A stretch of DNA of 64,000 nt from Dictyostelium firmibasis (Eukaryota > Evosea > Eumycetozoa > Dictyosteliales > Dictyosteliaceae): assembly GCA_036169595.1 (NCBI GenBank), contig CM069767.1:2896001-2960000 (forward strand). The letters are read 5' to 3'. Below the pieces are notes generated by a model. It did no database searches. It had not been told where the DNA came from and worked only from the letters and a program-made list of their open reading frames with translations. Positions 28,199-40,474 of the stretch are shown here, one piece after another. The position numbers and the translations under genes are program-made. Within the stretch, counting starts at the first letter, position 1; each line of letters begins with the position of its first letter.

Positions 28199-28557
28199 CC
28201 GGGGGGCTTATCGTAGTGGTTCCACGCTGAATCACAAGCCTCCGTGGCCAAGACCTTGGATCGAGTCTTGGTCATACCACGAAGTAACGTGGTCATAATT
28301 AAAACCTCATTATTGGAGGCTATACGTAGTGGTTCTGCGCTGAATCACACAGTCTCCGTGGCCTTGGTTCGAGCCTTAGGTCATACCACGAAGTAACGTG
28401 GTCATAAATAACACACCTCATAATCAACCGGAAAAAAAGCTCGACTTCCAAAAAACAACAACAAAAAAAAAAAAAAAAAAAAAAAAAAAAAAAAATGGTG
28501 ATTAGAAATTCTAATCCCAATAATATTAAAAAAAAAAAAAAAAAAAAAAAAAAAAAA
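28199..28557 (+). mobile_element. SINE-like dimeric tRNA-like element, copy 1a (full length)
   Basis: Flanked by the target-site duplication TACTGATAACA (28188-28198 and 28558-28568). It starts CCGGGGGGCTTA and has two related monomers in tandem (about 28205-28314 and 28318-28445), then a first A-rich stretch (28450-28494), a short tail with the palindrome GATTAGAAATTCTAATC (28500-28516), CCCAATAATATT and a final poly-A. The left monomer keeps a B-box-like GGATCGAGTCT but its A box has one change (TATCGTAGTGG); the right monomer has GGTTCGAGCCT. No coding capacity. Duplication plus poly-A is the signature of target-primed reverse transcription, so it must borrow enzymes from a non-LTR element. 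Confidence 0.85.
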
Positions 28558-28582
28558 TACTGATAACAGCTTCTCCTACCAG

Positions 28583-28797
28583 GGCTTAGCGTAGTGGTTC
28601 CAGGCTGAATCACAAGCCTCCGTGGTCAAGACCTTGGGATCGAGTCTTGGTCATACCACGAAGTAACGTGGTCATAATTAAACCCTCATTATTGGAGGCT
28701 ATACATTGTGGTTCTGCGCTGAATCACACAGTCTCCGTGGCCTTGGTTCGAGCCTTAGGTCATAAAAAAAAAAAAAAAAAAACATAAAAAAAAAAAA
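28583..28797 (+). mobile_element. SINE-like element, copy 1b (3'-shortened)
   Basis: Flanked by the target-site duplication TTCTCCTACCAG (28571-28582 and 28798-28809). It contains the left monomer with a consensus A box (TAGCGTAGTGG, 28587-28597) and the right monomer up to TTAGGTCATA, followed directly by poly-A interrupted by CAT. The end of the right monomer and the palindromic tail are missing. It sits two bases after the target duplication of copy 1a, so these were two separate insertions into one small host segment. Confidence 0.85.
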
Positions 28798-28899
28798 TTC
28801 TCCTACCAGCCTTTACCTATTCTCTATGAGACTCAAAATAAATGAAACCATATAAAAAAAAAAAAAAAAAAATCTCATATTATCATTCAATCATTTTTT

Positions 28900-29080
28900 A
28901 TTAATCAAAAAAATAATAGCAATAAAATACATTATCCAATAATGTGATAGTAGACTTTTTCAAATAAAATTTAAAATTTTAATAGTAGAAAAATATTAAA
29001 AAAAAAAAAAAAAGCAAAACACAACTAAACTTTATTATTGTTTTAAACTAAGGTCATACAATCATTAATATTAAAATAAA
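28900..29080 (+). mobile_element. Degraded retrotransposon 3' end (copy at tRNA-Pro locus 1)
   Basis: Similar by eye to 40725-40945 in the second tRNA locus: both have AATCAAAAAA.AATAGCAAT, GACTTTTTCA.ATAAAAT, and near the end ACTAAGGTCATACAAT followed by CATTAATATTAAAA. In locus 2 the same stretch ends an open frame and its trailer, so this is the worn 3' end of the same element family. Its position downstream of a tRNA gene fits TRE3-type integration. Confidence 0.55.
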
Positions 29081-29104
29081 ATTTATTTATTAATAAAGAT
29101 TGGA

Positions 29105-29830
29105 TTAGTATGAAGAAGAAGAGGAGGATGAAGATGAGGATGAAGATCCAAAGCATTTAATACTAAAGTCATCTTGTTGAGCACAGTTTTGAACCAAAGA
29201 AAAATCGTTACAACCAAACTCAGAACAAGAAAGACAATATGGTTCCAAATTTTCATTACAATAAAAAGTTTTAGTGAAGGTTACCCAAGTTTGAATATAT
29301 TGAAATTGTGTAGAGTTAGTAAGAAAACTGAAATAACCTTCTCTTATTGCGTTACATTTACTGCTATCCTGTGTAATTGTATCTTGAACTATTAAAGTAT
29401 TATCATCAAATTGAATTTGATCTGTATCTGTTAAAGTGTAGTATACACCCATTGTATTTGAGTATATACATTTACCACTTTGAAAAATTTCAATTGCATC
29501 AGGGTTTGATTTTGGAGCAGTTGTCGAGCAATAAGTATTAATATACCATTCAATTTTAATTGAATCTTGACCATCATTAGAAATAATAGCACAAAAATTA
29601 TTATCTACAACACCAAAAACTGACATTATTGCTGTTTCATCACTTGGTAATCTTGGGAATGTAAAACCAATTGCTCCTTCGTAATCATGACAAGCTTTAT
29701 CTGAATATGGAGCCATTGTAAAGGATGTACCATTTAATTGTAAATTAATATAATTATTTTTATTGTTTATATTTATTGATAAACAATTTTTAACTATTGC
29801 CAAAACTAATAAAATAATTAATAATTTCAT
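29105..29830 (-). CDS. Small secreted Cys-containing protein
   Basis: Intronless, 241 aa. A hydrophobic signal peptide (about 1-19) is followed by a mature region rich in beta-type sequence with about ten cysteines, including CLSCSEFGC, and several N-glycosylation sequons; it ends in a run of about twelve serines. There is no transmembrane segment or GPI-type tail, so it is likely secreted. It looks like a Dictyostelium-specific secreted family that I cannot name. The 3' end lies only 25 bp from the retrotransposon remnant, and a strong inverted repeat lies 128 bp before the start codon. Confidence 0.85.
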   Translation of the reverse strand: MKLLIILLVLAIVKNCLSININNKNNYINLQLNGTSFTMAPYSDKACHDYEGAIGFTFPRLPSDETAIMSVFGVVDNNFCAIISNDGQDSIKIEWYINTYCSTTAPKSNPDAIEIFQSGKCIYSNTMGVYYTLTDTDQIQFDDNTLIVQDTITQDSSKCNAIREGYFSFLTNSTQFQYIQTWVTFTKTFYCNENLEPYCLSCSEFGCNDFSLVQNCAQQDDFSIKCFGSSSSSSSSSSSSY

Positions 29831-30258
29831 ATTTAGTTTTTTTTAATATTTTTAATATTTATTTGATTGAAAAAGTATTTGTTTGTATTTTAATAAGAAT
29901 GAATAAATTTTTTTTTTTTGTTTATATAGCAAAAAAAAATTTTTTTAAGAAATAATTAAAGGAACGGAATATAGTTCTGACTATCTTTTTATTTTAAAAA
30001 AAGTTTTAATCAGAACCATATTCCGTTCCTTTTTTAAAACATAAAATATCTGAAAAAAAAAAAAAAAGATATTTTTTTTAAAAAATCCTAATTATTTTTG
30101 TTAAAAAATTTGATACAAATTGTATGATTTGAAAAAATAAAAAAAAAAAAAACATCATATCATTTTCAAGCACCAAAAAAAGAATCGGTATTGAAATTAC
30201 TTTATATATTTATATATATTTTACATTTATTTTATTTTATTTTACTTTTTATTTTAAA
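29831..30258. other. Intergenic region with inverted repeat
   Basis: Apart from the inverted repeat at 29958-30032, only A/T runs. It serves as promoter for the secreted-protein gene and as the 3' flank of the LRR gene. Confidence 0.5.
29958..30032. repeat. 23-bp inverted repeat upstream of secreted-protein gene
   Basis: Arms 29958-29980 and 30010-30032 are reverse complements with one mismatch, separated by 29 bp. The arms contain GGAACGGAATAT and GTTCTGA, unusually G/C-containing for this spacer. It could be a dyad binding site, a hairpin RNA or a small inverted-repeat element. Confidence 0.75.
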
Positions 30259-39560: not shown

Positions 39561-39864
39561 GTAAATAGTATTTTTTTTTTTTTTTTCAATTTCCTCATCC
39601 TTTTTTTTTTTTTAATTTGGATATATCATTTTTAGTAGTTTCCAAGTACCTTATCCTTGTTTTTTTATAATAACCTCATCCAATTGATGTTCTCGAATTA
39701 TTTTTATTTGGTTTAGTATTATTTTTACAAATTTTTTTTTATTTGGTATTTTATTATCTGTATTCCTACACAAGTTGAATTTTTGATTTCTGAATTTTTT
39801 TTTTTTTTTTAAATTGAATTTTTGATTTCTAAATGTAGCTATTTTTTTTTAAAAAAATAGAAAA

Positions 39865-39935
39865 GGGAGATTAGTTAAGTGGTATAATGCTACCTTTGGG
39901 TGGTAGCGTCCTGAGTTCGATTCTCGGATCTCCCC
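39865..39935 (+). tRNA. tRNA-Pro (UGG), copy 2
   Basis: Identical over all 71 nt to copy 1, with the same anticodon TGG and strand. A T6 terminator follows at about 39939. Confidence 0.95.
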
Positions 39936-39967
39936 ATCTTTTTTAGAAAAGCTTAATTGTGGTCGCG

Positions 39968-39978
39968 GGTTCGAGTCT
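39968..39978 (+). promoter_or_regulatory. External B-box-like motif downstream of tRNA-Pro copy 2
   Basis: GGTTCGAGTCT, 33 bp after the tRNA end. The following TTGGTC and, after a gap, TACGAAGTGAAC resemble the left monomer of the SINE-like element (GAGTCTTGGTC then CACGAAGTAAC), so the motif may belong to an old relative of that element. Confidence 0.6.
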
Positions 39979-40050
39979 TGGTCGGTCATTGTCTACGAAG
40001 TGAACCCTGACTACGGAATAGACAGATTCCCCAAACAATACTTCACCTGG

Positions 40051-40090
40051 ATTAATATTAAAAAAAAAAAAAAAAAAAAAAAAAAAAAAA
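40051..40090 (+). mobile_element. Extremely 5'-truncated retrotransposon tail insertion
   Basis: About 40 bp, ATTAATATT plus poly-A, flanked by the duplication ACTTCACCTGG (40040-40050 and 40091-40101). It has the same terminal ATTAATATT(A)n as the retrotransposon 3' end at 40933, so it is best read as an insertion aborted almost at once during target-primed reverse transcription. Confidence 0.75.
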
Positions 40091-40136
40091 ACTTCACCTG
40101 GTGCTCAAAGCCGTTAATTATGATATATACAGACCC

Positions 40137-40474
40137 CGGGGGGCTTAGCGTAGTGGTTCCACGCTGAATTACAAGCCTCCGTGGTCAAGACCTTGGGATC
40201 GAGTCTTGGTCATACCACGAAGTAACGTGGTCATAATTAAACCCTCATTATTGGAGGCTATACGTAGTGGTTCTGCGCTGAATCACACAGCCTCCGTGGC
40301 CTTGGTTCGAGCCTTAGGTCAGACCACGAAGTAACGTGGTCATAAATAACACACCTCATAATCAACCGGAAAAAAGCTCGACTTCCAAAAAAAAAACAAC
40401 AACAACAAAAAAAAAAAACATGGTGATTAGAAATTCTAATCCCAATAATATTAAAAAAAAAAAAAAAAAAAAAA
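40137..40474 (+). mobile_element. SINE-like dimeric tRNA-like element, copy 2 (full length)
   Basis: Flanked by the duplication ATATATACAGACCC (40123-40136 and 40475-40488). Left monomer: consensus A box TAGCGTAGTGG (40146-40156) and B-box-like GGATCGAGTCT (40196-40206), 50 bp apart, usual for Pol III internal promoters. Right monomer: B box GGTTCGAGCCT (40304-40314). Each monomer ends with the perfect hairpin ACCACG/CGTGGT around CGAAGTAACG. A-rich tract, then palindrome GATTAGAAATTCTAATC (40425-40441), CCCAATAATATT and poly-A. It is inserted into the retrotransposon relict. Nearly identical to copy 1a, so the family was active recently. Confidence 0.87.

Follow-up and report, generated by a model that had tools for sequence, protein, structure and literature searches.

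The best described counterparts of the elements reported here are the TRE retrotransposons, long interspersed nuclear elements (LINEs) that settle beside tRNA genes. TRE3 is described as integrating 40-150 bp downstream of tRNA genes in the same orientation, and TRE5 about 50 bp upstream in the opposite orientation (PMC5911963, PMC5006619). In Dictyostelium discoideum, TRE3 is further described as using an internal or external B box (PMC5911963), and an external B box is reported at about 80% of tRNA genes. The ORF2-lacking TRE5-A variant of the same species, TRE5-A.2 (ORF, open reading frame), is described as moving in trans, and the TRE5-A reporter built from it inserts some 50 bp upstream of tRNA genes (PMC5633606). 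In the genome of Dictyostelium firmibasis, a 64,000 bp stretch (C3:2896001-2960000, hereafter the window) contains three copies of a dimeric short interspersed nuclear element (SINE), here called SINE-3, which shares the strand of the tRNA genes that it follows; a sister family, SINE-5, lies upstream on the opposite strand. Both are very probably non-autonomous retroposons, whose RNA would be made by RNA polymerase III (Pol III) and which TRE-type LINEs would mobilize to opposite sides of tRNA genes.

SINE-3 is a real dimeric family of SINE type. Across the assembly (31,455,843 bp in 12 contigs), a 35-mer from its 5' end, or head, has 106 matches at up to three mismatches and a 23-mer from its tail has 137 at up to two, with none for either in reversed-sequence controls. 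The element is a repeat of about 315 bp followed by poly-A, composed of two monomers, an A-rich stretch and a 33 bp tail that ends in a hairpin. An initial annotation of the window, made from sequence alone, had proposed a dimeric tRNA-like SINE, and much of that description stands: the three copies, with duplications of 11, 12 and 14 bp and poly-A, lie exactly where it placed them; the monomers, judged by eye to be about 85% alike, are identical at 89 of 107 columns (83%) in the majority sequence; A and B boxes are present in the monomers; and the family is numerous. The parts that find no support are the tRNA-like arms and a clear tRNA ancestry, as described below. Mean pairwise identity among 39 full bodies, taken from an earlier and less complete scan (67 heads, 42 testable copies), is 97.8% (range 91.0-100%), and from this low divergence SINE-3 looks like a young family.

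All counts of position and duplication come from an exhaustive scan for heads in the window and in fetched genomic loci, designated by L numbers, which yielded 72 SINE-3 heads with 47 testable copies and 46 SINE-5 heads with 31 testable copies. The SINE-3 regions comprise the 20 with the best BLAST scores, 20 from the list of head matches, 15 others, most of them chosen because no SINE tail was listed nearby, and the window; further pieces were fetched for other reasons. For SINE-5, 19 regions were taken from the head-match list and the rest were encountered incidentally. No region was chosen by tRNA position, though the association was already known during part of the selection. Under one rule applied identically to real and mismatched flanks, a duplication of at least 9 bp borders 30 of the 47 testable SINE-3 copies, which are not all separate insertions because some heads share one tail (two heads in L043, for example), compared with 0.8% for mismatched flanks; the possibility raised at the outset that further copies with duplications would be lacking is thereby removed. 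SINE-3 and SINE-5 alike are short, non-coding, dispersed and of high copy number, with target-site duplications and an A-rich 3' end, as expected of SINEs. Features of the window that bear on this description are listed here, LINE letters A to F denoting this analysis's own groups of reverse transcriptase matches with similar frames.

27927-27997, plus strand: tRNA-Pro(TGG) gene, presumed target of copies 1 and 2 (ARAGORN; Rfam RF00005, 57 bits)
28028-28037, plus strand: external B box GGTTCGACTC, 30 bp past the tRNA end, a position similar to that at 52 of 54 host tRNA genes
28188-28198, plus strand: left 11 bp target duplication of copy 1, TACTGATAACA
28199-28557, plus strand: SINE-3 copy 1, full length, 201 bp past the tRNA end; the left monomer begins at 28199 and the right one at 28315, followed by the A-rich stretch, the tail and poly-A
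28258-28267, plus strand: left-monomer B box of copy 1, GGATCGAGTC (from sequence)
28323-28332, plus strand: right-monomer A box of copy 1, TACGTAGTGG (from sequence)
28366-28375, plus strand: right-monomer B box of copy 1, GGTTCGAGCC (from sequence)
28495-28527, plus strand: SINE-3 3' tail with hairpin, ATGGTGATTAGAAATTCTAATCCCAATAATATT (the 23 bp core is the 23-mer with 137 genome matches; fold z -4.8)
28558-28568, plus strand: right target duplication of copy 1
28571-28582, plus strand: left 12 bp target duplication of copy 2, TTCTCCTACCAG
28583-28797, plus strand: SINE-3 copy 2, tail-less
28798-28809, plus strand: right target duplication of copy 2
28812-29075, plus strand: degenerate sequence related to TRE3-type LINE A (identical at 208 of 310 columns)
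39669-39697, minus strand: degenerate SINE-5/LINE D tail, on the strand opposite the second tRNA gene and upstream of it (aligned to the 30-mer tail with 2 mismatches and 1 gap)
39865-39935, plus strand: tRNA-Pro(TGG) gene, presumed target of copy 3 (ARAGORN; Rfam)
39968-39977, plus strand: external B box GGTTCGAGTC
39996-40951, plus strand: 5'-truncated TRE3-type LINE A fragment in which a mini-insertion (40051-40090) and SINE-3 copy 3 are embedded
40123-40136, plus strand: left 14 bp target duplication of copy 3, ATATATACAGACCC, in LINE A sequence
40137-40474, plus strand: SINE-3 copy 3, full length, within the LINE A fragment, 201 bp past the tRNA end
40475-40488, plus strand: right target duplication of copy 3

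The site occupied by copy 3 can also be seen empty. When its flanks are joined and one duplication is removed, the product aligns as an unbroken LINE to L060 (95.6%) and L059 (94.7%). At a second joined site, in L040, the last 81 of 120 bases align to LINE A at 99%, and the remainder, upstream of the LINE fragment, is out of register with LINE A.

The most distinctive property of SINE-3 is its placement. A tRNA gene on the same strand lies 55-729 bp upstream of 69 of the 72 heads (66 placed by ARAGORN within the fetched pieces and 3, in short pieces, by separately listed tRNA positions); the remaining 3 have no tRNA gene within the fetched piece, and for none of the 72 is the nearest tRNA gene on the other strand. 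Distances past the tRNA gene fall within 310 bp for 57 heads and between 55 and 101 bp for 33. The chance expectation for a same-strand position within 310 bp downstream of a tRNA gene is about 0.2%, by arithmetic from the 379 tRNA genes given for D. firmibasis (PMC11193728). SINE-3 thus matches the TRE3 description in position and orientation, with part of the copies beyond 150 bp. Several of the larger distances belong to a second copy at a tRNA gene that already has one, as at 74 and 445 bp (L052), 159 and 520 bp (L054) and 57 and 441 bp (L076), a spacing of about one element, as if successive insertions had landed at one site. An external B box is found at 53 of 54 host tRNA genes, compared with 0.25% in shuffles, beginning 27-36 bp past the tRNA end in 52 and 47 bp past it in one. 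SINE-3 occupies TRE3-like sites but is no TRE3, a membership that entails two open reading frames with endonuclease and reverse transcriptase; SINE-3 has no reverse transcriptase.

SINE-5 was first noticed as pieces about 80-83% like a SINE-3 monomer that lay upstream of tRNA genes on the opposite strand. It consists of one monomer, an A-rich stretch, a tail ending CCAATTGGATGAGGTTATT and poly-A, measuring about 163 bp before the poly-A. Its head has 146 genome matches at up to three mismatches and a 33-mer from its tail has 236, LINE D ends included, both with none in the control. The two SINE-3 monomers and the SINE-5 monomer align at 83-86%, mean pairwise identity among 31 full SINE-5 copies is 96.6%, and 17 of these 31 have a duplication of at least 9 bp, compared with 1.2% for mismatched flanks. 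An opposite-strand tRNA gene lies on the 5' side of 37 of the 46 heads, and 7 have no tRNA gene in the piece. The distances are tightly grouped, 22 of the 46 falling at 41-54 bp (21 of them at 49-54 bp) and another 8 at 240-257 bp, about one element length farther out. SINE-5 therefore has the position and orientation described for TRE5 and, at about 163 bp plus poly-A, has none of the two open reading frames with endonuclease and reverse transcriptase that define TRE5 elements. Both the adjacency to tRNA genes and the existence of a second family on their other side go beyond the initial annotation.

Such positions might in principle reflect retention instead of targeting, with insertions landing anywhere and surviving only beside tRNA genes, an idea that gains some appeal from the gene density of this genome, given as 70.6% (PMC11193728). 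Survival of this kind leaves unexplained why every one of the 69 placed SINE-3 heads shares the strand of its tRNA gene and why 37 of the 39 placed SINE-5 heads lie on the 5' side in opposite orientation. It likewise fails to account for the sharp SINE-5 peak at 49-54 bp and for second copies one element length farther out, and it is very improbable.

Targeted mobilization of a Pol III transcript, the preferred explanation, draws on the internal promoter motifs of the two families. The A box reads TAGCGTAGTGG in the SINE-3 majority sequence and TATCGTAGTGG in copy 1, B boxes occur in both SINE-3 monomers, and the SINE-5 head carries A and B boxes as well. From these motifs we infer that SINE-3 and SINE-5 are transcribed by Pol III. 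The minimum-energy folds are three successive hairpins in each case (z -3.8 and -4.4 for the SINE-3 monomers, -3.1 for SINE-5), rather than the tRNA-like arms initially proposed. Among the 26 pairs of this fold, compared across three sequences, none has changed on both sides and 6 have changed on one; compensatory covariation thus provides no evidence of conserved structure.

A search for the origin of the head gave a similar picture. In Rfam, copy 1 has no tRNA hit even with the threshold relaxed to E<=10, and the window has no match beyond the two tRNA genes and none to 7SL, so the check for a tRNA or 7SL-like origin suggested in the initial annotation came back negative. Alignment to 34 host tRNA sequences, some of which differ only at their ends, gives best scores of 27 and 32 for the SINE-3 monomers, where the shuffle 95% points are 31 and 32. 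With no relevant Rfam match and tRNA similarity not above shuffles, a tRNA or 7SL origin of the SINE-3 head finds no support. SINE-5 reaches 36, a marginal result against a 95% point of 31 and a maximum of 36 in 200 shuffles; its best partner is tRNA-Trp, owing to a block of 16 bases that spans the A box, and a tRNA ancestry of its head is possible. Neither family shows the tRNA-homologous head and tRNA-like fold of a tRNA-derived SINE. SINEs of that class, with the tail of a partner LINE, resemble the present families in having an A- and B-box head and, for SINE-5, a 3' end shared with a LINE; they differ in that the D. firmibasis head does not score as a tRNA and its insertions are position-specific. 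Alu-like dimeric SINEs share with SINE-3 the two related monomers, A-rich stretch and poly-A, whereas SINE-3 has no 7SL match in Rfam, B boxes in both monomers and an association with tRNA genes.

Candidate partners are present in the same genome. Reverse transcriptase is clear by Pfam in the resident LINEs, and several copies are positioned like TRE3 or TRE5: a LINE B starts about 115 bp downstream of a tRNA-Leu gene on the same strand (L110), the window's fragment of LINE A begins 60 bp past tRNA-Pro, and a LINE D lies on the strand opposite a tRNA-Glu gene with its start about 47 bp upstream, a SINE-3 copy occupying a position 79 bp downstream of that same tRNA (L111). The last 38 bp before poly-A are identical in LINE D (reverse transcriptase at C5:218693 and C2:1363895) and the SINE-5 majority sequence; because two LINE D copies carry one 3' region before different flanks, this tail belongs to the LINE. 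Movement by TRE-type enzymes, which the initial annotation had supposed for SINE-3, is probable for both families on the strength of shared positions, to which SINE-5 adds a 3' end in common with LINE D. For SINE-3, the probable link to a LINE is indicated by position, poly-A and duplications.

The shared 3' end of SINE-5 and the reported movement of ORF2-lacking TRE5-A.2 in trans (PMC5633606) would also accord with both families being internally deleted TRE LINE derivatives, comparable to TRE5-A.2 and transcribed by Pol II, and not Pol III SINEs at all. Such derivatives would be hard to reconcile with the presence of A and B boxes, with a single head type joined to two different tails, and with the start of LINE B and LINE D, which lack a SINE head (the 5' ends of LINEs C and E lay outside this comparison). 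Where a head does precede a full LINE A, in L109 and L122, the SINE resumes past the LINE poly-A, placing the LINE inside the SINE. Deletion derivatives are very improbable, and the two families apparently borrow the machinery of larger elements.

A mechanism of SINE mobilization consistent with these observations can be outlined as follows. Pol III would transcribe the box-bearing unit, of which SINE-5 has one and SINE-3 two, and the protein of a resident LINE would take up the SINE RNA in trans. The LINE protein, rather than the SINE, would bring the complex to the tRNA gene, as the observed positions suggest, and target-primed reverse transcription into a nick would then leave the poly-A, 5' truncations and target duplications that are observed. 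TRE3-type LINEs, with their same-strand landing sites downstream of tRNA genes, would carry SINE-3, and the TRE5-type LINE D would carry SINE-5 to opposite-strand sites some 50 bp upstream. By selecting its LINE, the tail would also settle on which side of a tRNA gene the element inserts. The stronger proposition, that these are sister SINEs with one type of Pol III head and different tails, and that the tail alone decides partner and landing side, has about an even chance of being correct.

Several observations weigh against this scheme. The 33 bp tail of SINE-3 is absent from all six LINE 3' ends examined. The poly-A follows AATCATTAATATT (or TAT) in LINEs A and B and CCCAATAATATT in SINE-3, so that these two LINEs have in common with the SINE-3 tail only a short ending of the TAATATT-poly(A) type, too short for any claim of descent. 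Copy 2 in the window has no 3' tail, its poly-A starting after GGTCATA in the right monomer, yet it has a clean 12 bp duplication; its movement implies that an element can do without the tail. Of the testable copies, 17 of the 47 for SINE-3 and 14 of the 31 for SINE-5 lack a duplication of at least 9 bp, and 2 of the 46 SINE-5 heads are on the strand of the tRNA gene. Of 19 tRNA genes with no SINE-3 head in the piece, 15 likewise have an external B box (overall, at 68 of the 73 with enough 3' flank, 10-70 bp past the end), making it a general feature and not one specific to hosts. The LINE copies placed relative to tRNA genes are few, namely the LINE B, LINE D and window LINE A fragment described above, and the Pfam endonuclease match is weak in LINE A (E 0.01), while the matches listed for LINE C and for the LINE D fragment include no endonuclease.

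With its tail on none of the six sampled LINE 3' ends, SINE-3 gives no sign of being part of a longer TRE element. The same mismatch leaves some room for a different LINE, unsampled or extinct, that matches the 33 bp tail, likewise targets downstream sites and carries SINE-3. An exact pattern places 89 of the 137 tail matches in a SINE-3 context, and the other approximately 48 are not all explained. No LINE bearing the SINE-3 tail was seen, and copy 2 moved without a tail; L1-type machinery may need only poly-A. A separate carrier is a minority possibility, more credible than either retention or deletion derivatives, and mobilization of SINE-3 by the resident TRE3-type LINEs is still favored. 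A hairpin can form shortly before the poly-A in all six LINE 3' ends as well as in SINE-3, with z of -3.5 (A), -3.9 (B), -1.3 (C), -2.5 (D), -1.7 (E), -2.4 (F) and -4.8 (SINE-3), those of C and E being weak.

Both SINEs resemble TRE3 and TRE5 in their two integration windows and orientations, poly-A and target duplications, and differ in having A and B boxes, no such open reading frames, a length of about 165-360 bp including poly-A, and clear sequence sharing with a LINE only at the SINE-5 3' end. Like TRE5-A.2, which is described as non-autonomous (PMC5633606), they would be moved in trans; TRE5-A.2 is a LINE variant, whereas the SINEs are units with Pol III boxes. Non-autonomous elements derived from R2 in 28S genes similarly keep the site specificity of their partner, but are described as internally deleted R2 copies and not as SINEs with Pol III boxes of their own (PMC3414825). 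Among the matches listed in the literature, with Repbase and Dfam outside the scope of the search, there is no description of a SINE at fixed distances from tRNA genes and no named dictyostelid SINE family. One survey gives RepeatMasker counts of 88 'SINEs' in D. discoideum and 57 in D. purpureum, with no family named (PMC4683709). Dictyostelid genomes were searched by TBLASTX from known D. discoideum elements by Spaller et al. (PMC5006619), and D. firmibasis was annotated by tblastx against D. discoideum Repbase entries (PMC11193728); a non-coding family is not expected to appear in either. The list of known retroelements in the initial annotation implied D. discoideum as the source, a premise corrected by the assignment of the genome to D. 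firmibasis.

If the proposed mechanism is correct, the copied RNA is separable from the protein that picks the site, whereas in LINEs the two are difficult to disentangle. Elements as short as these SINEs, at about 163 or 315 bp, would then constitute a minimal reporter for the recognition of Pol III genes by TRE proteins on either side, and choice of integration site by tail swap would make the two families a natural two-sided pair of site-specific SINEs. Their spread would also have put many Pol III-type promoters beside host tRNA genes, which may affect those genes.

SINE copies may themselves be targets of LINEs. By eye, TRE3-type LINEs lie within SINE-3 copies at L109+L059, L122+L060, L084, L074+L129, L116+L132, L117+L133 and L125+L134, and in L109 the LINE duplication TCGAGTCTTGGT falls at the SINE's own B box. 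Template-switch chimeras of SINE and LINE were considered as an explanation of 14 junctions, and the claim was dropped: inspected by eye, 7 have a LINE in a SINE that resumes past the LINE poly-A, L114 is a SINE within part of a LINE B, L128 is a LINE B beside a SINE piece, and the remaining 5 (L077, L079, L080, L081 and L118) are left unassigned.

Two other LINEs have features of their own. In L067 (1-340), the end of LINE F lies some 13 bp upstream of a tRNA-Gln gene in the same orientation. Neither TRE3 nor TRE5 is described at such a position, and NLTR-A, for which integration is described at 2-6 bp from tRNA genes, comes closer to it. The 5' region of LINE D consists, by eye, of tandem repeats or modules (L111, about 1610-2195; L112, about 1500-2101), which calls to mind the modular 5' end reported for TRE5-A. 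Within the window, the 40 bp insertion at 40051-40090 comprises ATTAATATT and 31 A, flanked on each side by ACTTCACCTGG (40040-40050 and 40091-40101), and appears to derive from a 3' end of LINE A/B type, copied for no more than nine bases beyond the poly-A. Farther along from copy 2, an open reading frame on the minus strand (29108-29842) matches Pfam CfaA_B_C, counting factor-associated protein (E 5.8e-21).

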